Assembly: GCA_039720395.1 (NCBI GenBank)
Contig: CM077826.1
Span: forward strand, 38,840,790-38,904,789
Source: Liquidambar formosana
Taxonomy: Eukaryota > Streptophyta > Magnoliopsida > Saxifragales > Altingiaceae
Direction: 5' to 3'
Length of the DNA stretch: 64,000 bases
Both the position numbers and the translations under genes were made by a program. The notes beneath the pieces are model-generated. The model was not told where the DNA came from and ran no database searches. It saw nothing but the letters and a program-made list of their open reading frames with translations. Below, one piece after another: positions 5,682 to 62,066 of the stretch (positions are counted from its first letter, which is position 1; each line of letters starts with the position of its first letter).

Positions 5682-5686
5682 CCAAT
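5682..5686. repeat. target site duplication CCAAT (left copy)
   Basis: Perfect match to 23008-23012, immediately flanking the TG...CA termini of Tat-A. Confidence 0.95.
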
Positions 5687-6280
5687 TGTCACACCCCATT
5701 TTTGCACCACCTTACTAGGGCTCATCATTTCATGCATGTTTTTGTTTTGTTTTTGAGTCTAGTCACTTGCATTAGGTTTTTAGGGTCACAAGGACAATGG
5801 ATATGAATTTTGGTTCAAATTGGAGTTGATCTTGAGGAATAATAAGAGCTTTTATGACTTGAGGGGCATATTCGTCTTTTAAGTCCCAAACTTTTTATTT
5901 GACCTTGGAATGATCTCCAAATTGTCAATTGGAGTTCATATGGATGCATAGGAGGTATTTCTAGGTTCAATTTGATAAGTCAATGGCTCGGGATTAAAAT
6001 GGCTCAATACAGTTCAAGTTGGTCAATTGACCCTTCTTTGGGTTTGCTCTAATTGACTCTCAATTACCAACCAAATCTTTTCAAATTGACTTTAATTAGT
6101 CATCATTTTACTCCCAAAAGTGTTTCATGAAGTTCAATTTTGATGTGGCCCTGATGATGAGTTTAGTGTGGTTATTTACGGATTATCCTTGAAGAATTAG
6201 TGCGAATCACAGCATGAGATTTTTGGTTAAAATGAAAAGAAAATTATTTTATTAAATTAGTCATTTTTATCATGACACTA

Positions 6281-6340
6281 ACACATGTACGTATGTGATG
6301 AGTGTGTGTACGCACATACGATACATGTGCATGCGTGTTA
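6281..6340. promoter_or_regulatory. palindrome cluster upstream of the Tat-A TATA box
   Basis: Overlapping palindromes of the CATGTACGTATG / GTGTACGCACAT / ACATGTGCATGCGTGT type lie about 140 bp upstream of the TATA box. The same cluster lies in LTR F at 55956-56016. Confidence 0.6.
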
Positions 6341-6480
6341 GCGGTCAGTCTCCCAATTTTTGTAAAAGACAGTTTCCTTTTCCTATTCAGATTAGAAGTC
6401 TTTTATCATTATAAAATACCTTTTGATTATTCTCCAAGGAAACCTAGTCCAGGAAGGAAAGGGAAACTCTAGATTTCAGC

Positions 6481-6488
6481 TATAAATA
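6481..6488 (+). promoter_or_regulatory. TATA box of the 5' LTR
   Basis: TATAAATA follows AGC and precedes a CT-rich stretch. It is repeated at 21013-21020 in the 3' LTR and about 41739 in the solo LTR, and mirrored in LTR F (55805-55814, minus). A transcript start about 30 bp downstream is inferred. Confidence 0.7.
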
Positions 6489-7948
6489 CTCTCTTAATGT
6501 CTTTAAACAAGGGAGAGAGGAGAAGAGGGTTTGGAGGGAGTGAAATTCGTCATAATTCAGCAGCAGATTTTCTGAAAACCAGCAGTCGTATTTTAATCAT
6601 AACTTTTTCATCCGAAGTCAGAATTTGATGAAATTGGTCTTGTTAGAAAGATAATTCAATTCTCTACAACTTTATATTTCACAAGCTTTGTCCAAATCCA
6701 ACGTTTTCATACCCAAAAACGCGATTGAAGTTGCTGCTGCTGCAAAGTGACGAGAATCACTTTTTCTTTTCTCTTATTCTCTTTTTGTTTTCTATTTCTT
6801 TTCAAAGTTGAGTGAGTTTTGATCTCTTTGCTGTGATACCACTTTGACAAAGAGGAGGATTCGTGTTGGTTTGATTCACTCTAAAGACCTGAGGAGCCAC
6901 GAACAATTACAAACACAAGGAAGGCCTTTCCTAAGGTATTCTCCTTCTCTATTCAAGCTTAAACTAGGTTCTCATATGGGTTAGGCCTATTGCATGTTAA
7001 AGGTAACCTTTTTATCATGTATTAACACTCTAGCTAGTTAATATACATGGAATATCTATTTTTTATCTACTGATTAGCATGCTTTAGGGCTGTCCTTTAG
7101 GTTTTTAATGCATAGTTGTGATTCTTGTGCTCCTGTTTGTCCTTGTGCTAGGATTAGTGTCATTGCATGTTAGAGTTAGGATTTTCATCATGTTATATTG
7201 CGTTAGTTAGTTAATATGCATGATTTAATTTCTGTTTAGTTTGGTTTTAGCATGATTAAAGTATGTTTTGTATGTTTTTAAGCATATTTGTGAGTTTAGG
7301 GTTTTAGAGTCATTGTTTCGTGTTTGTTTTCATATAGCATGATAAAGTAGACTTTTTTATTTGGTTTTTCTTCGTGTTTGCTGTATATGTTTTTCATATG
7401 GAGTAAACATGATAGTTTTGCATGCATGTTAGTATGTTTTAGGGTTTTTATGCATGATATGGTTCTAGGAATATGTTAGGACTTATTATTGTTCGCCGTT
7501 TTTGCTATTGGCATGCTGAGTGGATGATTTTAGGTCATAATACTATTCTGTCCAGATTTGCATGTTAGTGTTTTTGCATGGTTTTGAGCACTTGTAAGGG
7601 TGCAAATAGGTGTGGTATTTGTCCCATGGCAAATAGGGCTGCTTATGTCTGAAATGGCTAAATGCTTGGAGCTAATTGCGCTCAGGTAAGTGGGTGTGAA
7701 GGTGCCCCAATTCACCTTTCTTCTTAACTCATTCTCTTCTCCCTATTTAGGGTTAATTTTTAATATGATCCTATGGTTTAATTAGAGGTTTCCTTAACCA
7801 ACAAAATTCTGGTTTTTATTAAAGTTTCCATTTTGTGGATTTCTTTCCTAAAATCAAACTTTCTATCATATTCAACTCTTTTGATCAAATAAGGAAACCT
7901 AGGGTTTTTACCATAGGTTTGTATTAGGATTTAACCTTAGTTCTAATC

Positions 7949-7996
7949 GAACTACGTGGACTTTGATCCATGTATTTCGTTGCATGGTACGTAGGC
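7949..7996 (+). other. conserved CTACGT hairpin in LTR (motif H1)
   Basis: Outer stem CTACGT/ACGTAG; inner stem CCATG/CATGG. Equivalents occur at 22481-22528, 43200-43247, 37555-37601 (minus) and 1709-1755 (minus), and with different inner stems at 16290-16414, 56333-56369, 58003-58041 and 61334-61372. See findings. Confidence 0.7.
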
Positions 7997-8212
7997 GCTC
8001 TTCGTGAGGCTCAAGTCCGTTCTAGGATCCAAGCATCCTAGGTTTATTTATGTTTTCTTTTCTTCTTTTTATTTTCTGTTTTTATTTGCTTATTATGCAT
8101 GGATGGATGAATGAAATATATGATATGCATGCAATTCTTGTGATGATATACTTGCTGATTTTTGTATGGAAAGACTTTAATTTAGCCCAAATGAACTGAG
8201 AGACCGAAAGGG

Positions 8213-8256
8213 TGACATGGGTGCCTATAGGCTTTGCCTAGAACCTTCCCATGTCA
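8213..8256 (+). other. conserved hairpin near LTR 3' end (motif H2)
   Basis: Outer stem TGACATGGG/CCCATGTCA encloses GGTGCCTA and ACCTTCCC. The core occurs in every Tat LTR of the window: 22745-22788, 43465-43508, 37296-37340, 1454-1497, 54863-54893 and 59961-59992. Confidence 0.7.
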
Positions 8257-8478
8257 TAACTTAGCCTCCGAATCCCCGATTTCTTTGGTTTTCAAAAGAT
8301 TGGTTTTTGCCTTTCCTTTTTTTTATGGAGTCATTCAAATTGTTTTCCTAAAACAACCTGATTTTTAGGGTTTTCCTTGTTTCCTTTAAAAAATAAGGTG
8401 GCGACTCCTTTCCTTTTTCTTTTTCAAACCCACTTTCTTTTCAATCCCTCGTGGGCCCAATTTCCGGGGTTCACAGTT

Positions 8479-8497
8479 TGGCGACTCCACTGGGGAT
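8479..8497 (+). promoter_or_regulatory. primer-binding site, tRNA-Arg
   Basis: TGGCGACTCCACTGGGGAT starts three bases after the LTR. It is complementary to the 3' end of plant tRNA-Arg(ACG) including CCA, as I recall that tRNA. Tat/Ogre elements are known to use tRNA-Arg. The first ten bases also occur inside the LTR at 8399-8408. Confidence 0.85.
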
Positions 8498-9352
8498 TTG
8501 TGGGCTAGACTCTATAAAGTTTGATTGGGCTAAGTTAATTTCTTATGTTTAATTAAAATAAATCACATTGCATCCGCTTGATTGTATGCTTTCATTTATT
8601 GCATTGTGTGCGCAAATTCTTGCATGCTAGGATCGATGTCCCTCGATGTATCCTTGCCAACGATCGGCCTAGTCTCAACCTTGGTTTTCCTGATTCCATG
8701 TGTTGGGGCGAAAGCTATCAACCTCTCTTGCCTAGTACCCTTGGGCTTGCCCTTGGGTATATTAAATGAGTTAATCACATACTGCTGGACCCACGCGGCG
8801 TTCCTGATGCCACATGTGGTTAGGTATAAGGATTGCTCAAGCAAGTGAAGGACCCCAGCCTACCCTTATCATTAGTCCATATAGACAGACTTGTAGGAAA
8901 CTACGGTCTCACCTTTATGCACCCACAATTGTTTGTAATGATGCTATGCCGTGTTTGTGGTGTAAGGCTTTATATCTTATGCCCTTAACATAGACCTTTA
9001 AACCCTAACCTTCGTTAAGGTCATGGGTTAGGAGGAATAAGTTAAGGAAATAGGATGTAAAGTTATGTTTGTGATGTGCTAGTCCTAGGGGATTAATTAA
9101 ACCTAATTGAAGGACTCTATACCCTATTCTTTTAAAACATACCCTTAATCCATAACCCTTGTAAAGGTAATTGGATAAAAGGAATGAATTAATTGAACAT
9201 GGTGTAGAGATCGAGTTCATTAAGGAAAATATGGAGGTTTAGGACAAGTCCTTAGGCTAAAGGTTAAAACTTTTCTATCCATAGACGTGCTGGCTTGGAT
9301 CCGCAATCCGCAAGGGCGTCTAGTGAGTGTTGAATCTACCCATCAGACAGAC
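8498..9352 (+). other. Tat-A 5' untranslated leader
   Basis: About 850 bp between primer site and gag ATG. Short frames at 8578-8848 on both strands have no recognisable domain. No gene supported. Packaging or dimerisation signals would be expected here, but I cannot point to one. Confidence 0.6.
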
Positions 9353-12079
9353 ATGGCCGACGAAAGAACTAGTGAGGGGCACTTTGACCTTGAGGCTTGC
9401 CTGAAAGCCATCATGACCAAGCTTGACCATACCGCCGAGACATCTGATACCGCATTGAGAATGGCTCAAGAGAACCAACAGAAGATGGCGGATCTTGAAC
9501 AAAATGGCTCTAAGGCCCATTCCTCGGGTATACCTCATGGGGCCGGCACCGAAGAGGGACCTCAATCCAATGAGAACACCAAGACAAGGGGGGAAAGTAG
9601 CTCGAAACCTGAGGTCATTAACCTAGAAGGGGAAGCCAAGGGGAAAGGTACTAGCAGTGATTCCGTGTTAGCTAGCAAGGTAGAAGCATTGGAGAGAACT
9701 ATAAAAGGGATTCGTAGGGCTGATGACATGGTCGATGTGCGGACTCTATCTCTGTTTCCAACAGCTCGTATTCCACTACAATTCAAGATGCCGGAGTTAG
9801 AAAAGTTCGATGGGACGGGTTGCCCTAAGACTCATTTGAAGATGTATGTGCGAGCTATGCACCCTCGAGGGGCTACTGACGAGCTTTTAGCTCAAATGTT
9901 CCATGAAACCTTGGCCACTTCTGCTTTGAAATGGTTCTTGTCCTTGGATGAGAATAGGACCCGGACCTGGGAAGACATATGCAATGAGTTCTCGGAGCAC
10001 TACAAGTACAACACAGAGGTGGATGTTACTCGAAGGGACCTGGAAACTACCAAGCAAGGGGCTCATGAAACTTTCTCCGCTTACATTACAAGGTGGAGAC
10101 AAAAGGCGTCGAGAATGACAGATAGGCCAAATGAGGAGGACCAAATTCAGCTGGTGGTTAAGAACTTGTTGCCTGTGTATCACAAGCACTTATTTGCCCA
10201 TTATTTCCCAAATTTCAAAGCTCTCATTGGGGCTGGGACGCAGGTTGAAGATGCTATCAATGATGGGACAATCAAAACTGAGGAAGTGAGGAGTCGCAAG
10301 ACAAACTTTACTGGGAGGAACAATGCCGAGGTCAACACCATAACTCAACCCATCCAACCCTTCTCTCTCAATGATGTCAACCCACCTCGCCAATTCACTG
10401 ACCTATTCATGCCACTCGAAAGAGTCCTTGAAAAGCTCATAAGTCGTAACCTATTGAAGCCACTTGACCCAAGACCTCCACCAAATCCCTTACCCAAGAG
10501 CTACAATGAGAATGAGTACTGCAAGTACCACCAATCCAAAGGCCATGCCACCAATCGCTGTATTCGCCTTCGCCACCAAATCCAAGACCTCATTGATAAG
10601 CAAGTCATTTCACCACCAACCCGTCCAAATGTCACCCGTAATCCTCTCCCGTCTCACAACAACACACCCCCACCTAACACCATAAATGCCATTGGGGTTG
10701 AATCCTTTCGCCCTCGCCGACCCATAAGACAATACACTCCACTCACCATGACCTTAACCCGTCTCTTCACCATTTGCCGTAATAACAGCCTTATCATGCC
10801 ACTTCCACCAAAGCCAAGGCCATCAACCCCTCACCAATATTGCCAATACCATCGTGCACCCAGCCATGACACCGAGGCTTGTTCTATACTAAAGAAGATC
10901 ATTCAAGACCTCATTGACCAAAAAGTTTTGTTGTTGCCAAAGAAATCTATCCAACAAGAGCTGAAAGAAAGATATGAAGCAGGGGATCCTCAGGTTGGCC
11001 TATTAGGTCAATCATCGGGGAAATTTGATTACTATGTGCTGTACTCAAGCCCAAGTCCGATATCAGATGAGCCGATAGTCCCTTCAGGTTGGGATGACTT
11101 GCCGACAGAGATGGAGAGCATTGACATGATAGAATGGGATGACTTAATGAATGACTCCGAGGAAGTCCATGACATATGGGCTAGCGATGATGAGTTGGAC
11201 CATATAACCAGAGGGGGTCGTCATTTCAAGCCTCCCCACCTAGAGTCTGAAAATCCATTGGAAGATTTGGAAGGGCAGAGGCGCCCTAGCTTGCAAGAAG
11301 AAGAGGATAAAGTGCTTAGGCAACTGAAGAAGACCAATGCCAACATCACTATTTGGGGCTTGCTCATGGCCTCGCATAAGCACAGACAGACCGTGTTGAA
11401 ACTGTTGAATCAGATACAAGTGCCTGTTGACACATCCCCCGAGGGATTGGTACATTTGGTGAATCCAACTCCTAAGAACTCAACTATCGTGTTCACCGAT
11501 GTAGACCTACCTAAAAGCGGGCCGAGCCATTCTCAAGCTCTCTATGTGACCATTGACACTATGGGGAAGAGGGTTCCCACCGTTCTTATCGACAATGGGT
11601 CCGCACTGAATGTATGTCCTCTCCGAACTGCCACTGTTTTGGGTTTGGGACCCACTGATTTCACGCCATCTGGGCAGACCGTAAGAGCTTATGACAACAC
11701 CCGCCGAGAAGTAATAGGGGTAGTTACTTTGCCTCTTATCATGGGACCCACTGAATTTAGGGTAGAATTTCAAGTGTTGGATGTGCCATCATGTTTCAAC
11801 TTGTTGTTGGGCCGACCTTGGATCCATCCTGCTGGGGCTGTGCCATCTTCACTCCATCAAAAGGTGAAGTTTCCTTATGAAGGAGCCATAGTAACGCTTC
11901 AAGGGGACTATGAATTGAAACTCGCAGGTGTGCCTATATGTGAGATACAACCCGAATCAGCAGCGATACCGCTATCTGGGTTTGACTATGTCCAATGCAT
12001 TGAGAAAGAGCTCGAAAAGGGTGAATTAATACCCTTGGACTTTTCCCCCATGGCAACTTGCATGTTGGTGAAATCATGA
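9353..12079 (+). CDS. gag-pro: Gag-protease polyprotein of Tat-A
   Basis: This 908-residue frame encodes the particle protein and aspartic protease. The frame is open from 9287, but the first ATG is at 9353, which I take as the start. A Retrotrans_gag domain spans roughly residues 145-285, with the signature FDGTGCPKTHLKMY and a WF(L)SLDE segment. Two nucleic-acid-binding knuckles begin at residues 390 (CKYHQSKGHATNRC) and 497 (CQYHRAPSHDTEAC); both are C-x2-H-x4-H-x4-C rather than the usual CCHC. The protease active site is DNGSALNV at about residue 747, where other families have DTG or DSG. The frame ends in TGA after overlapping the G-patch ORF by 22 bp. No internal stop is present. Confidence 0.93.
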   Translation: MADERTSEGHFDLEACLKAIMTKLDHTAETSDTALRMAQENQQKMADLEQNGSKAHSSGIPHGAGTEEGPQSNENTKTRGESSSKPEVINLEGEAKGKGTSSDSVLASKVEALERTIKGIRRADDMVDVRTLSLFPTARIPLQFKMPELEKFDGTGCPKTHLKMYVRAMHPRGATDELLAQMFHETLATSALKWFLSLDENRTRTWEDICNEFSEHYKYNTEVDVTRRDLETTKQGAHETFSAYITRWRQKASRMTDRPNEEDQIQLVVKNLLPVYHKHLFAHYFPNFKALIGAGTQVEDAINDGTIKTEEVRSRKTNFTGRNNAEVNTITQPIQPFSLNDVNPPRQFTDLFMPLERVLEKLISRNLLKPLDPRPPPNPLPKSYNENEYCKYHQSKGHATNRCIRLRHQIQDLIDKQVISPPTRPNVTRNPLPSHNNTPPPNTINAIGVESFRPRRPIRQYTPLTMTLTRLFTICRNNSLIMPLPPKPRPSTPHQYCQYHRAPSHDTEACSILKKIIQDLIDQKVLLLPKKSIQQELKERYEAGDPQVGLLGQSSGKFDYYVLYSSPSPISDEPIVPSGWDDLPTEMESIDMIEWDDLMNDSEEVHDIWASDDELDHITRGGRHFKPPHLESENPLEDLEGQRRPSLQEEEDKVLRQLKKTNANITIWGLLMASHKHRQTVLKLLNQIQVPVDTSPEGLVHLVNPTPKNSTIVFTDVDLPKSGPSHSQALYVTIDTMGKRVPTVLIDNGSALNVCPLRTATVLGLGPTDFTPSGQTVRAYDNTRREVIGVVTLPLIMGPTEFRVEFQVLDVPSCFNLLLGRPWIHPAGAVPSSLHQKVKFPYEGAIVTLQGDYELKLAGVPICEIQPESAAIPLSGFDYVQCIEKELEKGELIPLDFSPMATCMLVKS

Positions 12080-12612
12080 GCAGGATGAGTTTCTTCCCAG
12101 GCATGGGGCTAGGGCGTCGCCAACAAGGGATCCCTACGTCTATTCAAAGCCGTGTCACCTCATATACTTTTGGGTTAGGATATGAGCCCTCCAAAAATGA
12201 TTATGCGGAAATGCTGAAGAGGAACAAAGAGAAAGTAAGAGCCAAAGTCGAGGGAAGGGTGCCAGACCTGAAGATCTCGCCATATCGACCTACTTTGAAT
12301 GGTTACTTCGTCAAAGAAGGGGATGATTTTCTATATTGCGGGTTTCCAGAGCCCACCTTTGACCAAGCTACCAAGATCCGAGTTCCGGGTTTTGAAATCT
12401 TCTTCACCGAATGCTATCCAATCACAGCTGAAATGGTGGATGATGATGCCATCAATGATGAGTTCTGGGAAAAGAAAGAGGAGGACTGGGCAGAGAACCT
12501 TGATACGGGGGCTATGACTGAAATGTTCCAAGACATGATCCTCGCCGTGGAAGACTCGACCATTGAAGAACTCCAGGGTTCATCCATAGCCATGCTACCG
12601 TGCCATTCCTGA
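12058..12612 (+). CDS. G-patch ORF downstream of protease
   Basis: The 184-residue frame begins with a G-patch-like core, FFPGMGLGRRQQGIP, a glycine-rich motif found after the protease in Tat-lineage polyproteins and in RNA-binding proteins. It overlaps the end of gag-protease by 22 bp in a different frame. So either a frameshift mutation has separated it from the protease or it is made by frameshifting. The rest is acidic (DDDAINDEFWEKKEEDW) and recognised only as Tat-type. The frame ends at 12612; homologous-looking coding sequence continues in another frame to about 12689, which suggests a second small frame break. Confidence 0.75.
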   Translation: MHVGEIMSRMSFFPGMGLGRRQQGIPTSIQSRVTSYTFGLGYEPSKNDYAEMLKRNKEKVRAKVEGRVPDLKISPYRPTLNGYFVKEGDDFLYCGFPEPTFDQATKIRVPGFEIFFTECYPITAEMVDDDAINDEFWEKKEEDWAENLDTGAMTEMFQDMILAVEDSTIEELQGSSIAMLPCHS

Positions 12613-12689
12613 ATTGGTACCTTGAATGTGGTGTCATTGCGGAGATCCATGAAGAAGAAGACCTTGGCCTACCTGATAGCAGCTTGTAG

Positions 12690-12856
12690 GTGTCTTAGTT
12701 TAGTAATATTTCCCTAATTCAATAAGATGTATCTACTTTACTCACTTTGTGGAGTCATAGTATTGATACAGATTTGTTTGTTTTCCTTCTTTCTTTTGTG
12801 TGTCATTCCCATTATTCCTAGTCAATAAAGTGTGCTTTCTTTATCTATATATGCAG
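12690..12856 (+). other. candidate intron between protease/G-patch and RT
   Basis: A GT at 12690-12691 and a T-rich tract ending in TGCAG at 12852-12856 could bound a 167-bp intron. Ogre-type Tat elements are known to splice between protease and RT to make a continuous Gag-Pol. The exact sites here are inference. Confidence 0.4.
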
Positions 12857-12875
12857 TGTCTCTTTTCTCTCCTCT

Positions 12876-15800
12876 ATGGATATTTATGGCATGGATATAG
12901 ATCCTAGGAACGATGTCCCCCCGGAGCTCGTTGAGCAAAGGAAAAGGGGCGTCACCGAACCTAATATGGATGAATTGGAATCAATCAACTTAGGGACGAA
13001 TGAATTGTCAAGAATAGTTAAAATTGGGAAAACCCTCTCCCCCGTTGAAAAAGAAAAGATGATCTCTCTCTTGAAAGCCAACATTATGGCTTTTGCATGG
13101 TCTTATGAAGACATGCCTGGCATCGACCCCGATATTGTGCAACACTATATCCCCACTAATTCCCTAAAGAAGCCGGTAAAGCAGAAACTCAGAAGATTAA
13201 AACCAGAATGGGCTCTAAAAGTAAAAGAAGAGGTAACTAAACAACTAGACGCGGGTTTCCTCCAAGTTGTGGAGTACCCCGAGTGGTTGTCGAATATAGT
13301 GCCTGTGCCTAAAAAAGATGGGAAAGTGAGGATGTGTGTCGACTTCCGAGATCTCAACGCCGCGAGCCCTAAGGATGACTTTCCTTTACCCCATATCGAC
13401 GTGTTGGTAGATAGCACGGTGGGACATGCACTCCTCTCCTTCATGGACGGATTCTCCGGGTATAACCAGATAAAGATGGCGCCTCAAGACATGGAGAAAA
13501 CAGCCTTTATCATGCAATGGGGAACGTACTGTTACAAAGTAATGCCTTTTGGCTTAAGAAACGCTGGGGCTACTTACCAAAGAGCAGCTACGACCCTATT
13601 GCATGATATGATCCATAAGGAAGTTGAGGTTTATGTCGATGATATGATCGTAAAGTCTGTGGATAGAGAAGGGCATTTCAAGGCACTAGAGAAATTCCTA
13701 GAGCGAGCAAAAAAGTACAATCTCCGTCTCAACCCACAGAAGTGCGCTTTTGGTGTCACTGCAGGCAAGTTATTGGGGTTTATGATCACTCAGAGAGGTA
13801 TCGAAGTGGACCCAGGGAAGATAAAAGCTATTGTGGAGATGGAGCCGCCTAGCACTGAGAAGCAGATCCGGGGTTTTCTGGGAAGAGTTCAATACATAAG
13901 CCGATTCATTGCCAACTTGACCATGGTTTGCGAACCAATCTTCAAATTGCTTAAGAAAGGTGTGCCAAAAGTATGGAACGAAGAATGCCAAGAGGCCTTT
14001 GAGACCATTAAGAGATACTTGAGCAATCCTCCAATCTTAGTTCCCCCACGGCAAGGTGCGCCACTTTTGTTATACTTAACGGTCACCGAAACCGCGACGG
14101 GAGCTATGTTAGCTCAATATCTTGAAGGGTCTACAAAGGAAAATGCCATTTATTACTTAAGCAAGAAAATGACAGACTATGAAGTGAAGTACAATGCAAT
14201 TGAAAAGGCTTGTGTGGCACTAGTATGGGCGACGCAGAAACTCCGGCACTACATGATGTCCTTCGAAGTGTTCTTGATAAGTCGCATGGACCCGTTGAAG
14301 TACCTGGTAGAAAGACCAGTATTGTCATTCAGAACTGCTCGATGGTCAATTCTCCTCAATGAATTCGACATCAAGTACGTGAATCAAAAGTCTATCAAGG
14401 GAAGCGTCATCGCAGACTACCTAGCCAGCTGTCCGGTGTCATCATCTGCTCCGTTCAACGATCAATTCCCAGATGAGGACGTGCTAGAGATTGGTAGAAA
14501 AACTTGGAGAGTATACTTCGATGGGGCAGCCAATAAGAAAGGTTATGGGATAGGAGTCCTGCTGGTCTCACCCGAAGAGGCATTTACACCGTTGGCGGTC
14601 AAGTTGGGGTTCGAAGCCACCAACAACATTGCTGAATATGAGGCCTGTATCCTAGCATTGGAAGCGGCACTTGAATTGGGGATCAAAGAATTAGAAGTGT
14701 TCGGGGACTCGGCGCTAATCATTTGTCAGATAAAAGGGGAATGGAAAACTCGAGATGAGAAGCTGCTACCCTACCATGCCTATCTGGAAGCTCTAACCAA
14801 GGAGTTCTCAGAGATAGAATTTAACTACCTTTCAAGGAACAAGAACCAGTTCGCCGATGCCTTGGCGACCCTAGCATCCATGGTGGAGATACCTGAAGGG
14901 GGAAATGTGAAGCCGTTGGTGATAGAATGCCGAGACAAGCCTGTGTACTGTTGTGCAATCCGAGGAGGAGAGGTAAATGATGGCCGTCCGTGGTTCCATG
15001 ACATAAAGAAGTTCATTGAAGAAAGGGAATACCCAGAAGGAGCATCTCGTATCGATAGAAAAACCCTAAGGCGGTTGGCGAGTCACTATGTACTTTGTGG
15101 AGGAAAGCTATATCGGAGATCATACGACGGGATCCACCTGCTGTGTGTCACCGAGGAAGAAGCCGAGCATCTGATTAAAGAAATCCATAAAGGGACAGGG
15201 GCTCCGCATATGAATGGCTATATGTTAGCTAAGAAAATCATGAGGTTAGGCTATTATTGGTCTACCATGGAAAGAGACTGCCACGCACATGTCAAGAAGT
15301 GCCACAAATGCCAACTGTTCGCCAGTGGACAACATTTGCCTTCTATGCCTTTAACAAGTATGTCGTCACCATGGCCATTCGCGGTATGGGGGATAGATAT
15401 CATCGGACAGATCAAGCCAAAGGCGTCAAATGGGCATGAATACATCCTGGTTGCCATCGACTACTTCACTAAGTGGGTGGAAGCAGCGTCCTTCAAGACC
15501 TTGAATTCCAAGAAGGTAGCACAGTTCATACAGCACAGCATCATCTATCGATATGGGGTACCGCATGAAGTTATCTCAGACAATGGCCAGCACTTTCAAA
15601 AAGAAACCCATGAGCTCTTGCAAAAGTACGGCATAGTTCACCATCTGTCATCACCATACCGTCCTCAGACTAATGGAGCGGTGGAAGCAGCTAACAAGAA
15701 CATCAAGAAGATACTACAGAAGACTGCGGACTCGCACACAGACTGGCATGAGAAGTTGCCATTGGCTTTATGGGGTTACAGAACATCAATAAGGTCGTCA

Positions 15801-16235
15801 ACAGGGGCTACCCCTTATTCTCTAGTTTATGGAATGGAGGCCGTGTTGCCAGTTGAATTGGAAGTTCCTTCACTAAGAGTTGCCGTGGAGAGCCAGATAA
15901 CAGAAGTGGACTGGGTTAAGAGCCGCTATGATGAGTTAGCTTTGCTGGATGAAAGGCGTTTAAGGGCGCTGTATCATGTTCAGGGGTATCAATGGAGAGT
16001 TGCCAGAGCATTCAACAAGCATGTCAAAGATCGAGGTCTAAAGAAGGGGGATGTAGTGCTGAAAGAAATCAGAGCTCCAGTGTTCGATCCGCGGGGAAAA
16101 TTCAAGCCAAGTTGGGGTGGGCCATACATTATCAAAGAGATATTGCCAGCAGGGGCTGTTCGCCTCATGGATTTAGTTGGAATTGAGTTCGCTCGTCCAA
16201 CTAATTTGGACCAATTGAAAAAATATCATGTTTGA
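12876..16235 (+). CDS. pol: Pol: RT, RNase H, second RNase H, integrase
   Basis: An uninterrupted 1,119-residue frame. The reverse transcriptase has YVDD at residues 253-256. The first RNase H (about 390-490) is degenerate: LYLTVTETATGAML stands where the first catalytic Asp is expected. A second, archaeal-type RNase H (about 545-675) keeps its acidic set: FDGAAN, AEYEA, GDSAL, ADALA. This doubling is characteristic of Tat. Integrase has an HHCC finger (H about 771, CHKC about 809) and the DDE triad (GIDIIG about 839, SDNGQHF about 901, NGAVEAANK about 935). The C-terminal GGPYII segment is near 1081. The upstream ATG may be internal to a spliced polyprotein. All catalytic motifs apart from RNase H 1 look intact. 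Confidence 0.95.
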   Translation: MDIYGMDIDPRNDVPPELVEQRKRGVTEPNMDELESINLGTNELSRIVKIGKTLSPVEKEKMISLLKANIMAFAWSYEDMPGIDPDIVQHYIPTNSLKKPVKQKLRRLKPEWALKVKEEVTKQLDAGFLQVVEYPEWLSNIVPVPKKDGKVRMCVDFRDLNAASPKDDFPLPHIDVLVDSTVGHALLSFMDGFSGYNQIKMAPQDMEKTAFIMQWGTYCYKVMPFGLRNAGATYQRAATTLLHDMIHKEVEVYVDDMIVKSVDREGHFKALEKFLERAKKYNLRLNPQKCAFGVTAGKLLGFMITQRGIEVDPGKIKAIVEMEPPSTEKQIRGFLGRVQYISRFIANLTMVCEPIFKLLKKGVPKVWNEECQEAFETIKRYLSNPPILVPPRQGAPLLLYLTVTETATGAMLAQYLEGSTKENAIYYLSKKMTDYEVKYNAIEKACVALVWATQKLRHYMMSFEVFLISRMDPLKYLVERPVLSFRTARWSILLNEFDIKYVNQKSIKGSVIADYLASCPVSSSAPFNDQFPDEDVLEIGRKTWRVYFDGAANKKGYGIGVLLVSPEEAFTPLAVKLGFEATNNIAEYEACILALEAALELGIKELEVFGDSALIICQIKGEWKTRDEKLLPYHAYLEALTKEFSEIEFNYLSRNKNQFADALATLASMVEIPEGGNVKPLVIECRDKPVYCCAIRGGEVNDGRPWFHDIKKFIEEREYPEGASRIDRKTLRRLASHYVLCGGKLYRRSYDGIHLLCVTEEEAEHLIKEIHKGTGAPHMNGYMLAKKIMRLGYYWSTMERDCHAHVKKCHKCQLFASGQHLPSMPLTSMSSPWPFAVWGIDIIGQIKPKASNGHEYILVAIDYFTKWVEAASFKTLNSKKVAQFIQHSIIYRYGVPHEVISDNGQHFQKETHELLQKYGIVHHLSSPYRPQTNGAVEAANKNIKKILQKTADSHTDWHEKLPLALWGYRTSIRSSTGATPYSLVYGMEAVLPVELEVPSLRVAVESQITEVDWVKSRYDELALLDERRLRALYHVQGYQWRVARAFNKHVKDRGLKKGDVVLKEIRAPVFDPRGKFKPSWGGPYIIKEILPAGAVRLMDLVGIEFARPTNLDQLKKYHV

Positions 16236-16285
16236 GGCCTGCTAGGTTGAAAACCCGTAAGGGCGGCCTAGGCAAAAGTTAAGGC
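16236..16285 (+). other. conserved post-pol block shared with element F
   Basis: About 50 bp right after the pol stop, containing GCTAGGTTGAAAACCC and GGGCGGCCTAGGCAAAAG. It can fold through CTAGG/CCTAG and CCC/GGG pairs. The same block is at 57683-57735 on the minus strand in element F, which has no pol. Confidence 0.7.
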
Positions 16286-16289
16286 ATGA

Positions 16290-16353
16290 GAACTACGTAA
16301 GACCTGATTCTCCATTCAAAAAAAAAACAAAAAAAAAAAAAACAAAAAAAAAC

Positions 16354-16389
<36 letters not shown>

Positions 16390-16414
16390 AAAAAACCATG
16401 GAGATATGTAGGCA
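16290..16414 (+). other. H1 hairpin whose loop holds an A-rich tract
   Basis: Outer stem CTACGTA with TATGTAG; inner stem CTCCAT with ATGGAG. Between the inner arms lie about 75 bases of almost pure A (16318-16395) with scattered C and G. Confidence 0.7.
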
Positions 16415-16562
16415 ACCCATAAAGTTACCTTGGGTGCGGTCTAAATTAAACAAGAAAATCCCAAATTTGATTTATTATTGGCAATTTATTCAAAACTAAA
16501 ATTGATTGACATAGCAATTCATTGGTATTAAGTAAAAGAACTGTAAAAATGCCATAAATATC

Positions 16563-17853
16563 CTATTCTATTTTCTTGAGCCTCTTTGCAGCTCGCTCCT
16601 CAGCTTTCTTCTTCTCTCTTTCATGTCTTCTTTTCTTCCTCAAGTCATGTTCATAAGCTGCTGTCACTGCTTCCATAATATCTTCTCTGCAAGGTCCAAG
16701 TTCGTTGTTCTTGATAAGTCCAAAAATCCTTTCTCTTCGAGTAGTCTCTCTCTCACCTAAATTGCTTTTCAACCATTCCTTATACTCGGGGCTCATCATA
16801 TACGGACCATCAGTATTCGTAACTTGGGTTAGTATCAACTTGTTAGGCCATCGGTCCTTCGCCCAAGTCACTACAGAAAGACCCGCAGGCACCACAGGAT
16901 AGTCACTTTTCAAGGAAGTAGGTGTGGTTTGCATGGCGCCCATCTGACGCAGAACCCTTGAAGGCCAATAGAAGGAAGTAGACCTCAGTCCTATGAGTCT
17001 CACCATGGCGCATCCAGAAGTCCGCAGAAGCACCTGGTCACTGCAGCCCCATATGAATACAAACCACTTGACACTCCTCTAAGAAAGGGTTTGGTAGTAA
17101 CCTAGCCAATCTCTCAATGAAAATTGCCCAGGTAATTCAATGCGGCGAAGGCAGTAATGCTGGGGCTTGTATGGTGTAATGGCAACTGGTGACAAGAAAT
17201 TCAGTCTTTCAAGCAACCACATCTGCAGTAGAATGGGGCTACCTCCTAAAGGAACCTTTGGGTCCTCATGAGTTTTATCCAAACCATTCAGGGTTTCAGC
17301 TAGCACCATGGGAAACAAGTTATGACCCTTGGCAAGGAGAGGAATCAAGTCACAGATTTGAACGGGAACATGTGGAGTACCAGTGGAAATAAGAAAACGA
17401 CCAATGAGGCAAAAGGCAAGTGCATGCTTAATAGGAAAGGTAAAATTCAGAATACCTTTACTATCACAAGCTAAAAAAAGAGGTTGCCAATTTCATCAAG
17501 TCTACCATATGGTCCTTTACAAACGTAGAGGCATATTGTGAGTGAATCCCAAGTAGATTGGAGAAAGAAGTAAGAAAGCTTGGGCGAGGAGTAGGGAGAA
17601 TGAAAGGACCTACCGTTGAAACTCCATACAATGCACAGAATTCCTCCATGGTTGGGCACAGTTCTTCATAGTTGAAGCGGAACACATGAACTTGAGGATC
17701 CCAAAAATATGTAGCAGCAGTCAAGAGGTTCGTTTCAAGCCTCACATGCCTCAAGGAGAGCAATGGATCCAAGCCAAAGCACTTGAACTCAGATTTTGCT
17801 TCAGCACTCATAACTCTCAAAAACCCTCCTAAAAATTTGTCTAGAGCCTCCAT
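16563..17853 (-). pseudogene. antisense ORF with plant mobile domain (DUF7745-like)
   Basis: On the strand opposite to gag-pol lies a coding region starting at ATG 17853. Its N-terminus contains FWDPQVHVFRFNYEELCPT followed by MEEFCALYG, typical of the transposon-borne plant mobile domain (DUF7745/PMD). A middle segment has GSPILLQMWLLERL. The C-terminus is a charged helix ending about 16563. The frame breaks at a run of seven A at about 17474-17480 and again near 17050. Similar antisense ORFs between integrase and 3' LTR are known in Tat elements; their role is unknown. The breaks suggest a pseudogene, unless introns explain one. Confidence 0.75.
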
Positions 17854-17900
17854 AATTTCTAATGAATGAATACAAGTAGGTTTAGGAACCTCTTGGATGT

Positions 17901-17910
17901 GTTTTTATAG
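17901..17910 (-). promoter_or_regulatory. TATA box of the antisense ORF
   Basis: CTATAAAAAC on the minus strand, about 50 bases before the ATG of the antisense ORF and 90-150 bp downstream of the inverted-repeat cluster at 17997-18053. It suggests the antisense gene has its own promoter. Confidence 0.65.
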
Positions 17911-17996
17911 GGAAAAGGTCACAAATCCAAGTTCAAATAGGAAAAAACCCATCAGAATAGGAAGTTTCCTATTCAAAGTGGGATTTCCGCTTCGGG

Positions 17997-18053
17997 CTCG
18001 GGTAACCACCCAGGCCTAGGCGGCTAGCCTCCCGAGGCCTGGTGGTCACCCAA
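17997..18053. promoter_or_regulatory. inverted-repeat cluster upstream of the antisense ORF
   Basis: GGGTAACCACC pairs with GGTGGTCACCC around AGGCCTAGGCGGCTAG. It closely resembles the clusters upstream of the TATA boxes in LTRs A' (3007-3050) and D (39317-39347), not the cluster now in the Tat-A LTR. Confidence 0.65.
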
Positions 18054-18344
18054 GCCACTTTGTTTTGGTTTTGCTTCTCGCTTTGTCTCGCCTTGACGCG
18101 TGATCAAATCTCCTTCCAAATGAGATATTCAACACTTTTTGAGCTTAAAATCAATCAAATTCCATCTTGAAATCAATTCCTTGAATTGATTTTATGTTCA
18201 AAAGGGTTGAATATATTTCCCCTGTGTCATGCCAACTCAAGTGACAATGTGTTAAGACACTTTCCTCTTGCACCATGCTTGTTTAATCTTGATAAATTGA
18301 TCATATATCCTCATGTCAAATCTTGATTTTTCATCTCACTTGGT

Positions 18345-20081
18345 TGAATGTATTCATCACTTGAATATATTCTTCCATTTCAAAAGTGTATTCACCCTTT
18401 GAATATACTCCTCAGTTTCAAATTCTTGATTTTCCATCCCACTTGGTTGAATATACTCATCACTTGAATATATTCTTCCATTTCAAAAGTGTATTCACTC
18501 TTTGAATATGCTTCTCAGTTTCAAATTCTCATTTTCTATCATACTTGGTTGAATATATTCATCACTTGAATATATTCTTCCATTTCAAAAGCATGTTCAC
18601 CCATTGAATATGCTTCCTAGTTTCAGATCCTCATTATCACTTACTTGGTAAAATATATTCATCGCTTGGGTATATTTCTCCATTTCAATGGTATATTCAT
18701 CACTCGAGTATACTTCTCAGATATTTTGTCACTTACTTGGTTAAGTATATCCATCGCTTGGGTATACTTCTCCATTTTAATGGTATGTTCATCACTTGAA
18801 CATACTTCTCAGATCATTTGTCACTTACTTGGTTAAGTATATCCATCACTTGGGTATATTTTTTCCATTTCAATGGTATACTCATCACTTGAGTATACTT
18901 CTCAGATATTTTGCCACTTACTTGGTTAAGTATATCCATCGCTTGGGTATATTTCTCCATTTCAATAGTATGTTCATCACTTGAACATACTTCTTAGATT
19001 ATTTGTCACTTACTTGGTTAAATATATTCATGACTAGAATATATTTCTCCATTTCAATGGTGTACTCATCACTTGAGTACACTTCTCAGATTATTCTCTA
19101 TCTTACTTGCTTAAGTATATCCATCGCTTGGATATATTTCTCTATTTCAATGGTATGTTTATCACTTAAACATACTTGTCACTTACTTGGTTAAGTATAT
19201 CCATCACTTGGATATATTTCTCTATTTCAATGGTATGTTTATCACTTAAACATACTTGTCACTTACTTGGTTAAGTATATTCGTGACTAAAATATATTTC
19301 TCCATTTCAATGGTGTACTCATCACTTGAGTACACTTCTCAGATTATTCTTATCTTACTTAGTTAAATATATCCGTCGTTTGGATATATTTCTCCATCTC
19401 AATGGTATGCTCATCACTTGAGTGTACTTCTCAGCTTACTTGGTTAAATATATCCATCACTTGGATACATTTCTCCATTTCAAAAGTATGTTCATCACTT
19501 GAACGTACTTCTCAGTCTTTTTCAATCATTAAGTATACTCATCACTTGAGTATATTTCTCAGCATCTTTTTCATCACTTGGTTAAATATGTTCGTGACCT
19601 GAATATATTTCTCCATTTCAAAAGTACACTCATCACTTGAATACACCTCTCGGATTATTCTTATCCTACTTGGTTAAAGATATCCATCGCTTGGATATAT
19701 TTCTCCATTTCAATGGTATGCTCACCACTTGAGTATACTTCTCAGATTTCATTCTCAGATTACTTGGTTAAATATATTCGTGACCTGAATATATTTCTCC
19801 ATTTCAGTGGTATACTCATCACTTGAGTATACTTCTCAGATATTTTGTCACTTACTTGGTTAAGTATATCCATCGCTTGGATATATTTCTCCATTTCAAA
19901 GGTATGTTCATCACTTGAATGTGCTTCTCAGATTTCATTCTCATCACTTGGTTAAATATATTCGTGACTAGAATATATCTTTCCATTTTAAAAGTATGTT
20001 CATTCGTAGTGGCTTGAATATGCTTCTCTTATCAATTCTCAACCCTCAGTGGTTTAAGTATACTCATGACTTGAGTACACT
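18345..20081 (+). repeat. 3' region hairpin array of Tat-A
   Basis: A tandem array with a repeat of about 92 bp, each holding two short hairpins with a TCACT or TCGCT loop. Stems differ along the array but stay self-complementary: TATACTCA/TGAGTATA, TATGTTCA/TGAACATA, TGTACTCA/TGAGTACA, TATGTTTA/TAAACATA, TATATCCA/TGGATATA. Spacers carry TTCTCCATTTCAA or TTCTCAGAT. Frames of about 62 codons inside it are repeat artefacts. Confidence 0.9.
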
Positions 20082-20203
20082 TCCTTATTTCAGTCTCAGG
20101 TTTTCAACCTCCCATCATTGTTGGTATCAGTGTGTGATTTCTCCGGGCTTCTTGGCAAAAATGGGTTGTTCTTTATCATTGGTTCACAAGTGTAACTTGT
20201 TCG

Positions 20204-20218
20204 CCAATGAGGGGCTTC
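20204..20218 (+). promoter_or_regulatory. polypurine tract of Tat-A
   Basis: AATGAGGGGCTTC ends at the first base of the 3' LTR. The core RRGGGGC followed by 3-4 bases and TG is also found next to LTRs D, F and E (minus strand), so the plus-strand primer site is conserved. Confidence 0.75.
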
Positions 20219-23007
20219 TGTCACACCCCATTTTTGCACCACCTTACTAGGGCTCATCATTTCATGCATGTTTTTGTTTTGTTTTTGAGTCTAGTCACTT
20301 GCATTAGGTTTTTAGGGTCACAAGGACAATGGATATGAATTTTGGTTCAAATTGGAGTTGATCTTGAGGAATAATAAGAGCTTTTATGACTTGAGGGGCA
20401 TATTCGTCTTTTAAGTCCCAAACTTTTCATTTGATCTTGGAATGATCTCCAAATTGTCAATTGGAGTTCATATGGATGCATAGGAGGTATTTCTAGGTTC
20501 AATTTGATAAGTCAATGGCTCGGGATTAAAATGGCTCAATACAGTTCAAGTTGGTCAATTGACCCTTCTTTGGGTTTGCTCTAATTGACTCTCAATTACC
20601 AACCAAATCTTTTCAAATTGACTTTAATTAGTCATCATTTTACTCCCAAAAGTGTTTCATGAAGTTCAATTTTGATGTGGCCCTGATGATGAGTTTAGTG
20701 TGGTTATTTACGGATTATCTTTGAAGAATTAGTGCGAATCACAGCATGAGATTTTTGGTTAAAATGAAAAGAAAATTATTTTATTAAATTAGCCATTTTT
20801 ATCATGACACTAACACATGTACGTATGTGATGAGTGTGTGTACACACATACGATACATGTGCATGCGTGTTAGCGGTCAGTCTCCCAATTTTTGTAAAAG
20901 ACAGTTTCCTTTTCCTATTCAGATTAGAAGTCTTTTATCATTATAAAATACCTTTTGATTATTCTCCAAGGAAACCTAGTCCAGGAAGGAAAGGGAAACT
21001 CCAGATTTCAGCTATAAATACTCTCTTAATGTCTTTAAACAAGGGAGAGAGGAGAAGAGGGTTTGGACGGAGTGAAATTCGTCATAATTCAGCAGCAGAT
21101 TTTCTGAAAACCAGCAGTCATATTTTAATCATAACTTTTTCATCCGAAGTCAGAATTTGATGAAATTGGTCTTGTTAGAAAGATAATTCAATTCTCTACA
21201 CCTTTATATTTCACAAGCTTTGTCCAAATCCAACGTTTTCATACCCAAAAACGCGATTGAAGTTGCTGCTGCTGCAAAGTGACGAGAATCACTTTTTCTT
21301 TTCTCTTGTTCTCTTTTTGTTTTCTATTTCTTTTCAAAGTTGAGTGAGTTTTGATCTCTTTGCTGTGATACCACTTTGACAAAGAGGAGGATTCGTGTTG
21401 GTTTGATTCACTCTAAAGACCTGAGGAGCCACGAACAATTACAAACACAAGGAAGGCCCTTCCTAAGGTATTCTCCTTCTCTATTCAAGCTTAAACTAGG
21501 TTCTCATATGGGTTAGGCCTATTGCATGTTAAAGGTAACTTTTTTATCATGTATTAACACTCTAGCTAGTTAATATACATGGAATATCTATTTTTTATCT
21601 ACTGATTAGCATGCTTTAGGGCTGTCCTTTAGGTTTTTAATGCATAGTTGTGATTCTTGTGCTCCTGTTTGTCCTTGTGCTAGGATTAGTGTCATTGCAT
21701 GTTAGAGTTAGGATTTTCATCATGTTATATTGCTTTAGTTAGTTAATATGCATGATTTAATTTCTGTTTAGTTTGGTTTTAGCATGATTAAAGTATGTTT
21801 TGTATGTTTTTAAGCATATTTGTGAGTTTAGGGTTTTAGAGTCATTGTTTCGTGTTTGTTTTCATATAGCATGATAAAGTAGACTTTTTTATTTGGTTTT
21901 TCTTCGTGTTTGCTGTATATGTTTTTCATATGGAGTAAACATGATAGTTTTGCATGCATGTTAGTATGTTTTAGGGTTTTTATGCATGATATGGTTCTAG
22001 GAATATGTTAGGACTTATTATTGTTCGCTGTTTTTGCTATTGGCATGCTGAGTGGATGATTTTAGGTCATAATACTATTCTGTCCAGATTTGCATGTTAG
22101 TGTTTTTGCATGGTTTTGAGCACTTGTAAGGGTGCAAATAGGTGTGGTATTTGTCTCATGGCAAATAGGGCTGCTTATGTCTGAAATGGCTAAATGCTTG
22201 GAGCTAATTGCGCTCAGGTAAGTGGGTGTGAAGGTGCCCCAATTCACCTTTCTTCTTAACTCATTCTCTTCTCCCTATTTAGGGTTAATTTTTAATATGA
22301 TCCTATGGTTTAATTAGAGGTTTCCTTAACCAACAAAATTCTGGTTTTTATTAAAGTTTCCATTTTGTGGATTTCTTTCCTAAAATCAAACTTTCTATCA
22401 TATTCAACTCTTTTGATCAAATAAGGAAACCTAGGGTTTTTACCATAGGTTTGTATTAGGATTTAACCTTAGTTCTAATCGAACTACGTGGACTTTGATC
22501 CATGTATTTCGTTGCATGGTACGTAGGCGCTCTTCGTGAGGCTTAAGTCCGTTCTAGGATCCAAGCATCCTAGGTTTATTTATGTTTTCTTTTCTTCTTT
22601 TTATTTTCTGTTTTTATTTGCTTATTATGCATGGATGGATGAATGAAATATATGATATGCATGCAATTCTTGTGATGATATACTTGCTGATTTTTGTATG
22701 GAAAGACTTTAATTTAGCCCAAATGAACTGAGAGACCGAAAGCGTGACATGGGTGCCTATAGGCTTTGCCTAGAACCTTCCCATGTCATAACTTAGCCTC
22801 CGAATCCCCGATTTCTTTGGTTTTCAAAAGATTGGTTTTTGCCTTTCCTTTTTTTTATGGAATCATTCAAATTGTTTTCCTAAAACAACCTGATTTTTAG
22901 GGTTTTCCTTGTTTCCTTTAAAAAATAAGGTGGCGACTCCTTTCCTTTTTCTTTTTCAAACCCACTTTCTTTTCAATCCCTCGTGGGCCCAATTTCCGGG
23001 GTTCACA
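20219..23007 (+). repeat. 3' LTR of Tat-A
   Basis: Same length as the 5' LTR; I counted about 18 substitutions by eye and no gaps. It contains the same TATA box (21013-21020), hairpins (22481-22528, 22745-22788) and primer-like 10-mer (22931-22940). Followed by the duplication CCAAT at 23008-23012. Confidence 0.95.
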
Positions 23008-23012
23008 CCAAT

Positions 23013-40055: not shown

Positions 40056-40122
40056 GAAGCCCCTCATTGGTGAACAAGTTTCACTTGTGAGCCAATGATC
40101 AAAGAACAACCCATTTTTGTTT
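40056..40122 (-). promoter_or_regulatory. polypurine tract region of D
   Basis: On the minus strand GAGGGGCTTC abuts the LTR, preceded by a segment nearly identical to 20150-20218 of Tat-A. Confidence 0.75.
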
Positions 40123-40678
40123 GATGGATTAACCACATTAATACCAACAAACTCAAATGGAATCAAAAGGATGGACTTCGTTATATCCAAGCATGCGACG
40201 ATTTCATCGAAACTAATAATTGATTGCATACCAACATTCGTTGGTGCGCTCATGCAAATGCCTTTACCATGCACTAATTGCATTAGTGATATAACAACAC
40301 ATTCTTGCTTGATGGATTAATCTCATTAATACCAACAAACTCAAATAGAACCATAAGGATAGACTTCGTCATATCCAAGCATGCGACGATTTCATCGAAG
40401 CAAAGAATTGATTGCATACCAACATTCGTTGGTGCGCTCATGCAAATGCCTTTACCATGCACTAATTGCATTAGTGATATAACAACACATTCTTGCTTGA
40501 TGGATTAATCTCATTAATACCAACAAACTCAAATAGAACCATAAGGATAGACTTCGTCATATCCAAGCATGCGACGATTTCATCGAAGCAAAGAATTGAA
40601 TGCATTTCTATGCATGCCAACATTCGTTGGTGCGCTCATGCAAATGCCTTTACCATGCACTAATTGCATTAGTGATAT
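40123..40678. repeat. 188-bp tandem repeat with hairpins (D array 1)
   Basis: Three units starting at 40123, 40311 and 40499. Each has perfect hairpins: ACCAAC/GTTGGT, CACTAAT/ATTAGTG around TGC, and CGAT/ATCG around TTC. Confidence 0.88.
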
Positions 40679-56892: not shown

Positions 56893-56911
56893 GCCTGAAA
56901 ATAGTGATAAA

Positions 56912-62040: not shown

Positions 62041-62066
62041 CTGGGTTTTTGGAAGGTCTATTTGAC

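Follow-up and report, generated by a model that had tools for sequence, protein, structure and literature searches.

Why does a plant retrotransposon carry, ahead of its 3′ LTR, a long run of short hairpins whose two arms change together? The question is raised by array A, which lies in a 64,000-nucleotide stretch of the Liquidambar formosana genome (hereafter the window). Positions 5687–23007 of the window are one LTR retrotransposon with both ends intact. Its two LTRs are 2789 bp each, and its features are as follows.

5682–5686 and 23008–23012: 5-bp target-site duplication CCAAT that flanks the element
5687–8475, plus strand: 5′ LTR, beginning with TGTCACACC and ending with TTCACA
8479–8496, plus strand: putative primer-binding site, PBS-like TGGCGACTCCACTGGGGA
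9287–12079, plus strand: gag ORF, with Retrotrans_gag (PF03732)
12876–16235, plus strand: pol ORF, with RVT_1, RT_RNaseH, RVT_3 (second RNase H), Integrase_H2C2 and rve in this order
17464–17853, minus strand: antisense ORF, with DUF7745 (PF24924)
18045–20154, no strand assigned: variable slot between the antisense-ORF region and the stretch adjoining the polypurine tract, without BLASTN homology (at least 60 bp) to sister elements in the surveyed 200 kb
18346–20082, plus strand: array A, 37 hairpin units
20177–20209, plus strand: stem-loop CATTGG..ACAAGT..ACTTGT..CCAATG, adjoining the polypurine tract
20210–20218, plus strand: putative polypurine tract AGGGGCTTC, before the 3′ LTR and labelled by position
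20219–23007, plus strand: 3′ LTR, 99.3% identical to the 5′ LTR (17 mismatches in the first 2554 aligned positions)

By its sequence, the host of array A is classified as a Ty3/gypsy LTR retrotransposon of the Tat lineage (Ogre/Retand-type). Its pol contains RT, RNase H and integrase in Ty3/gypsy order, and RVT_3 lies at pol residues 548–666, between RT_RNaseH (395–497) and Integrase_H2C2 (759–815). The second RNase H was recognized as RVT_3; its designation as “archaeal” type is a label from descriptions of the lineage. A second RNase H domain between RNase H and integrase is given for the Ogre/Retand group in the accessible part of PMC6317226, and the element was therefore grouped with Ogre/Retand of the Tat lineage. 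Retand elements contain an antisense ORF between pol and the 3′ LTR, according to the portion of PMC11963269 at hand, and such an ORF is present here (17464–17853, minus strand). The same portion reports a TRP28 (PF04195) domain in the antisense ORF of 97% of Retand clusters. TRP28 gave no match at an E-value of 0.001 in either antisense ORF of the element (16563–17033 and 17464–17853), so that we do not file it as Retand; the ORF at 16563–17033 has no Pfam match. The array is abundant: when 718 Mb of the genome were searched and the best 40 candidates scored, at least 40 places (the window included) matched the 879-bp query 18637–19515 over its full length at 98% identity or more. Searches for relatives of the RT confirmed none in viral contigs or prokaryote genomes. 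A known RNA family was rejected as an identity for array A, since no match in 16200–22800 reached its gathering score against 4227 Rfam families at E up to 1. The sole match, mir-1781 at 18117–18219 (25.5 bits against a gathering score of 68), lies outside the array.

The unit of array A is 27 nt long and consists of an 11-bp stem and a 5-nt loop. Two kinds of unit alternate, H1 (AARTATATYCA/TGGATATATTT-like) and H2 (GGTATRYTCA/TGARYATACT-like), and the start-to-start spacing is exactly 38 nt in 16 of 36 gaps and 39 nt in one. Units were collected with a profile made from 30 hairpins found by pairing, which was used for a similarity scan of 18300–20110 that brought the number to 37; only 7 of these were added by similarity, and most units were thus first found by pairing. 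The units provide 407 pair cells, of which 341 are Watson-Crick, 40 G.T, 11 A.C and 15 other, the last including 11 T.T cells at the outer end of H2. No stem pair is invariant. When the 3′ arms were permuted among units 2000 times, 288 ± 6 Watson-Crick cells were obtained (maximum 310). Hairpins are also far more frequent than in shuffled sequence: 18301–20100 contains 18 perfect stems of at least 7 bp, against 0.7 in 30 shuffles, and 32 against 6.4 when G.T is allowed.

A pair-count test on 33 distinct rows with 500 shuffles gave a similar picture. Standard pairs reached 93.7% (shuffled 88.0 ± 0.7), the covariation score 0.417 (0.293 ± 0.016) and the number of cells altered on both sides 35 (11.3 ± 3.9), and none of these values was attained in 500 shuffles. 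Pairs with change on both sides numbered 8 against 4.8 (8/500); the count of further pair types was ordinary (17 against 16.2; 191/500). Sliding one arm by 1–3 bases reduced pairing to 20–51%. Unit-wise consensus folding of the array found that 6 of 14 pairs covary. The preliminary description, which had noted about 1.7 kb of hairpins whose stems change in matched pairs, is borne out by the 37 units and their 341 Watson-Crick cells against the permuted 288 ± 6. It had also spoken of a fixed five-base loop, TCACT/TCGCT, which is nearly true of length but not of sequence. A free hairpin search found a loop of 5 nt in 31 of 34 cases and of 7 nt in 3. Loop sequence is less constant, with TCACT in 20 of 37 units, TCGCT in 6, TGACT in 4, TGACC in 2 and five others once each, so that 11 of the 37 deviate.

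Further arrays lie elsewhere in the window.

40105–40678, minus strand: array F, 188-bp repeats adjoining a copy of the polypurine-tract stem-loop
43772–44125, minus strand (strand taken from L041): array D, built of 74-bp repeats that contain GAGTTAT/ATAACTC and further hairpins; L041 has a related array
56440–57280, minus strand: array B, in another Tat-like element, with a ten-base loop ACAGGAAAAG, varying stems, and GAATTCT/GAACTCT hairpins
61439–62047, minus strand: array C, 51–52-bp repeats that contain hairpins, ahead of a PPT/LTR-like junction; L038 and L043 have related arrays

Array B is a second covarying family and is unrelated to array A. Its stems in the window and in pieces L049–L071 include GACCC/GGGTC, GATCC/GGATC, TTTTATCC/GGATAAAA, TCTGATCC/GGATCAGA and TGTAATCT/AGATTATA. 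We assembled 24 copies, namely the window and 23 of 39 other scored places, which are partly downstream stretches. They contain 126 ten-base-loop hairpins with 46 distinct arm pairs; only hairpins with the exact loop were kept, and the conservation of the loop follows from this anchoring of the search. Watson-Crick pairs occupy 236 of 368 cells, compared with 191 ± 6 (maximum 211) in 2000 permutations. Pair 5 occurs as G-C, A-T and T-A, and the changes thus include transversions.

Among the other families, arm permutation gave no clear excess in G, where forms are few (G_CAGT, 5 distinct arm pairs, z 1.8; G_GAT, 8 distinct arm pairs, z 0.5). B2 gave z 2.0; the patterns used for B2 and G_GAT also caught misregistered sites. 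Unit-wise consensus folding yielded no structure for B1, B2, C and G2, because the units were cut at or inside hairpins, and a structure without covariation for D and G1. In E, represented by three sequences, 1 of 6 pairs covaries; besides E, this procedure detected covariation only in A. At 43714–43772, the end of an LTR (TTCACA) directly abuts array D, where a PBS-like site would be expected, which suggests a nested or solo LTR next to the array of another element.

Hairpins of other kinds were also observed. Four 35-bp repeats at 44829–44960, flanked by putative copia-like ORFs, carry GATCTCC..GGAGATT alternating with AATCTAC or GATCTAC..GTAGATT around the loop ACC.GTGAA, with a paired double transversion from C-G to A-T; another type of LTR element may hold covarying hairpins here. 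L036 (6900–9400), and also L037, L040 and L041, contain short perfect hairpins with loops such as CTCC, CTCT and CACT and quite different stems, in what appears by eye to be putative copia LTR and leader sequence; there is no ORF of at least 150 amino acids in L036 or L037. The dense run in L036 was rejected as a tandem array, as its hairpins are dispersed. More generally, perfect hairpins are more frequent in 500-bp windows of this genome than in shuffled ones: 78 of 1035 overlapping windows (L029–L048 and the window) contain at least four, compared with 0 of 259 when every fourth window was shuffled.

What do related elements carry at the place of array A? All array comparisons were made within one species. 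BLASTN of 16201–20260 and the 3′ LTR against 200 kb of the same genome (L029–L048) showed that homology to sister elements runs through the antisense-ORF part and ends at about 18032–18045 in L030 (74.7%), L045 (75.4%) and L048 (75.8%), and at 17970 in L042 (70.3%). It restarts at 20154–20156 with the polypurine-tract side, which is common to L041, L045 and L047 (87–88%); L029 showed no homology on this side. Between these limits, 18061–20153 had no match of at least 60 bp in L029–L048. Four sister elements in the 200 kb share both sides or the first side with the array-A element and carry unrelated arrays in the slot. L045 and L047 have an array of 80-bp hairpin repeats there, and the L047 array matches 40 places in the genome at 97% or more. 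L041 has array D, and L029 has TTAGGGTTT/AAACCCTAA and ATGATTGGTCA/TGACCAATCAT hairpins. The LTR of L029 is 97% identical to that of the array-A element, and the RT of L048 is 96.7% identical to that of the array-A element over 420 residues.

Perfect hairpins of at least 7 bp are concentrated in these slots. The array-A slot contains 9.0 per kb and other slots and 3′ pieces contain 0.7–15.4, with the lowest values in L042 (1–1453, 0.7) and L048 (1–2214, 0.9), the latter a part that holds antisense-oriented ORFs. Coding parts contain 0.1 (array-A gag-pol), 0.0 (L048 pol) and 0.3 (L042 pol); the single hairpin in array-A gag-pol, against a shuffled mean of 3.2, is no excess. As a control, we considered 18 tandem arrays of at least 200 bp in the 200 kb and the window, of which 11 were assigned to slots, 5 to LTRs and 2 to neither. 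Slots were assigned by BLAST and neighbours, array D of the window by its similarity to L041 and array F by its stem-loop. Nine of the 11 slot arrays exceeded shuffles in perfect hairpins (fraction at most 0.02 of 100), the others being those of L038 (0.53) and L041 (0.28), which were not enriched. The five LTR arrays contained 0, 0, 0, 0 and 1. Of the two in neither class, L032 1659–2291 was hairpin-rich (6) and L032 5054–5274 had none.

Two further sets of repeats were seen in this survey. Tandem arrays of 172–182 bp in the LTRs of related elements (L044 8829–9605, L046 6469–7239, L047 5272–5872 and L031 5624–6249) are without perfect hairpins. Repeats with GTTGCAATA..TATTGCAAC or TGCAATA..TATTGCA hairpins, in L032 (1659–2291) and L033 (7751–9500), have no element assignment. 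The stem-loop beside the polypurine tract is present in the elements of A, F (window 40065–40097, reverse strand), L041, L045 and L047 and absent from L029. Common to elements with unrelated arrays, it may guide plus-strand priming.

Non-Watson-Crick pairs of a structured RNA array should mainly be G.U on the strand that is transcribed. We classified isolated non-Watson-Crick stem positions by a mismatch-blind, strand-neutral rule, with each array read in the sense of its element. The ratio of G.U to A.C was 18:3 in A, 14:4 in B (4 loci), 18:2 in C, 1:4 in D, 1:0 in F, 10:2 in G and 4:6 in L029, or 66:21 over the seven families, with 78 other mismatches. In the controls it was 188:221 (100 kb of genome on one strand, L031–L040, which include Tat elements and the L038 array), 8:13 (gag-pol) and 8:3 (3′ LTR). 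For 66:21 a binomial test gives P 1.4e-6, which is an underestimate because cells within a family share ancestry; counted by family, G.U prevails in five and A.C in two, and one of the five is a single cell. Whole-array composition predicts ratios of 0.93 (A), 1.82 (B), 0.65 (C), 1.13 (D), 1.42 (F), 1.80 (G) and 0.75 (L029). In array A the preference is partly a matter of arm base composition, as permuted arms give 68:36 compared with the 40:11 observed. Array-A forms seen at least four times account for 44 G.U and 12 A.C cells; substitutions leading to forms seen one to three times comprise 18 G.U, 13 A.C and 7 other mismatches. In array B, pairs 1–5 of the 46 forms from 24 copies contain 14 G.U and 16 A.C, and the ratio is 5:2 in the 16 forms common to at least two copies. 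The preference on the sense strand is thus present in A, C and G, mixed in B, and absent from D and L029.

Folding of the transcript, which the preliminary description had proposed, was carried out on 18820–19190 (371 nt). The sense RNA reached –106.3 kcal/mol (z –11.1), its centroid containing each of the 8 hairpins, and the antisense RNA folded more weakly (–84.6 kcal/mol, z –5.9). Values for whole stretches are crude, as they rest on 12 shuffles each: on the sense strand, G and D fold better than their shuffles, and there is no clear gain for B (z +1.9), F (–1.6) or two of the three C arrays (–0.7 in L038, –1.5 in L043). L029 folds better, relative to shuffles, on the antisense strand. Overall, the G.U excess in A, C and G and the better sense folding of part of array A lean to selection on the sense strand.

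Young copies of array A offer a view of recent change. We compared 21 copies at 96% identity or more, leaving out L015, L018, L021, L022, L023, L026 and L027. The share of variants that fall in stems showed no significant difference between variants confined to one copy and common ones (Fisher P 0.15). Already among single-copy variants, stems are hit less often (26 in 814 columns) than the remaining sequence (76 in 821), a deficit for which selection acting after insertion would not account. Double compensating changes occur at 19721/19733 in 1 of 21 copies and at 19870/19880 in 2 of 21; exchange of units could be an alternative source of these.

Such double changes are what one would expect if one arm were copied into the other. 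A growing strand could switch template within a hairpin during reverse transcription or DNA replication, as proposed for RNA hairpins in the part of PMC8794818 consulted, and stems would then be perfect without having a function. Array B speaks for this mechanism: its stems differ radically around one loop type (GTGATCC, TTTATCC, TATAATC), which would be hard to reach by stepwise selection, and the larger B set has no G.U preference (14:16). However, copying is blind to the kind of mismatch and predicts about as many G.U as A.C, contrary to the 18:3, 18:2 and 10:2 observed in A, C and G. By itself it also leaves unexplained why gag-pol has no excess of hairpins and why the LTR arrays are nearly free of them. 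We regard arm copying as fairly unlikely, with a chance that is nonetheless substantial; it remains the main rival because B is mixed and D and L029 lack the preference, and above all for B with its radically different stems.

Could the pairing simply be inherited? An ancestral palindrome, duplicated in tandem and followed by drift and unit exchange, would yield hairpins for free and under no constraint. The arrays are indeed tandem repeats whose stem types are inherited, and whole-unit variants distinguish the copies. We inferred a tree from the 37 units, each taken with 8 nt of sequence to either side, and on it let sites evolve independently, every column having its own rate and base frequencies; a pair was scored as covarying when at least two Watson-Crick types were each seen at least twice. 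In array A, 7 of 11 pairs covary, compared with 1.6 ± 1.1 in simulations that take the units as tree-like and ignore the unit exchange suggested by the copies (0 of 1000 reach 7). The excess holds within each kind of unit: 3 pairs against 0.3 in H1 (0.3% reach 3) and 4 against 0.6 in H2 (0 of 1000). All covarying pairs of array A are transitions, and hairpins within one array share ancestry, so that these counts lack independence. The Watson-Crick total taken by itself stands out less, being reached by 1.9% of simulations for all units, 4.1% for H1 and 3.2% for H2. Changes per column average 2.6 in stems and range over 1–4 in the loop and 1–6 in the flanks. Because stem columns change about as often as the loop and flank columns, the stems are not frozen but move in pairs. 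In array B, 5 of 8 pairs covary, compared with 1.6 simulated (0.4% reach 5), and the Watson-Crick total is reached by 4.8% of simulations.

The preliminary description had named neutral simulation as the test on which its claim should fall if covariation were no greater than in simulated repeats, and the excess persisted. Its argument that plain tandem duplication does not explain paired change, which leaves either selected structure or copied arms, is upheld by arm permutation, tree simulation and pair counts in A, and the same is seen in the unrelated array B. Duplication would, moreover, need a separate palindromic founder for each of the non-homologous slot arrays, and the LTR arrays received none; we consider it improbable. 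Least probable are palindromes that act as double-stranded DNA, namely sites for a dimeric protein, perhaps in a promoter of the antisense ORF 17464–17853, whose start lies 500 bp from array A, the array being upstream of the ORF, in the manner of the repeated palindromes of Sirevirus LTR boxes that are read as control sites in the portion of PMC2829016 seen: a sequence-specific site should keep its arms but no stem pair of array A is invariant, and a duplex has no strand yet on the sense strand A, C and G have more G.T than A.C, so that we rejected sites for a dimeric factor as the main reading.

Taken together, the hairpins exist, their stems covary beyond a tree-based null in two unrelated families, and the slots of sister elements hold non-homologous, mostly hairpin-rich arrays. 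Selection for hairpins in sense RNA or plus-strand DNA is indicated by three observations: the arms change in pairs, three families show the strand preference, and unrelated hairpin arrays replace one another. The two fit equally, as plus-strand DNA would tolerate G.T as well; that the selected strand is the sense strand is supported in part. We favour the reading that, in the genomic RNA of a Tat-lineage element, array A forms a series of short hairpins within the 3′ region, kept by selection for their fold in the sense strand, and put its probability at roughly 0.55.

How might such hairpins be used? The preliminary description had named packaging, dimerisation and a small-RNA decoy as guesses. 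Many similar hairpins could form a multivalent binding site for a protein of the element, the simplest candidate being Gag, when the RNA is packaged, with the antisense-ORF protein as another. The stems would need only to pair, and their sequence could drift and whole arrays could be replaced. By analogy with the coat-protein hairpins of RNA viruses, and with Gag and the antisense-ORF protein as the element's own candidates, such a binding site may be the likely use, a suggestion that we regard as somewhat doubtful. It is slightly less of a reach, though still tentative, to speculate that the “hypervariable” 3′ arrays of Tat elements form a module defined by structure alone, a hairpin cassette rebuilt repeatedly from unrelated sequence. 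The cassette would probably offer Gag or the antisense-ORF protein an assembly platform with many sites, and would also provide the source shape of the plant satellites arising from these arrays. Such rebuilding would be feasible because the requirement would extend only to repeated hairpins whose loop is specific to the family.

Should these be hairpin arrays kept by selection, a large stretch of abundant plant retrotransposons that looks idle would have a role open to testing, and the covariation would indicate which paired changes can be tolerated. The arrays would also lend themselves to a comparison of selection and template switching as sources of compensating changes. Macas et al. 2009 is cited on the hypervariable 3′ tandem repeats of Tat-lineage elements in this literature (PMC7004042, PMC11963269).

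Array A can be compared with several known systems. Tandem repeats occur commonly in the 3′ region of Tat elements, have no known function and give rise to plant satellite DNA, as stated in the parts of PMC7004042 and PMC11963269 available to us. The hypervariable 3′ repeats of Ogre/Retand described there share the lineage and the place of array A (from pol or the antisense ORF to the 3′ LTR), and their sequence differs between families, as it does here. They are treated there as tandem repeats of unknown or recombinational origin, whereas the repeats described here are hairpins. In text searches of these two sources, “hairpin” was absent from both, and “palindrom” was absent from the former and confined to a reference title (2 matches) in the latter. 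The preliminary description knew of no account of such a structure, and the top matches of open-access literature searches likewise contained no report of hairpins or covariation in Tat 3′ arrays, with position and tandem nature already described. As far as these sources go, the presence of tandem arrays at this position in Tat elements was known, and their hairpin nature and covariation appear to be new.

Other comparisons concern the hairpins themselves. The enod40 study, related but different, deals with stem-loops related to plant tandem repeats and transposons that were taken up into an RNA gene (PMC10578108, in the part seen). The template switching of PMC8794818 resembles arm copying in that copying one arm produces paired changes; it is proposed for DNA replication in RNA genes, and “reverse transcri” and “tandem” gave 0 matches in the text searched. 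The boxes of Sirevirus (Ty1/copia) elements are like array A in that a short dyad is repeated many times within an LTR retrotransposon of plants. In the accessible text of PMC2829016, however, they lie in LTRs (some also near ENV), share a core, CGG-CCG, in all but Tnd-1 and are discussed as sites that control transcription, whereas the arms of array A vary yet stay paired. The packaging signals of single-stranded RNA viruses and hepatitis B virus, in the partial sources consulted, consist of many hairpins with a recognized loop that are read by the coat or core protein, and the likeness to array A lies in the many hairpins. Those signals are dispersed and their protein contact has been tested, whereas array A forms one tandem block and is known here from its sequence.
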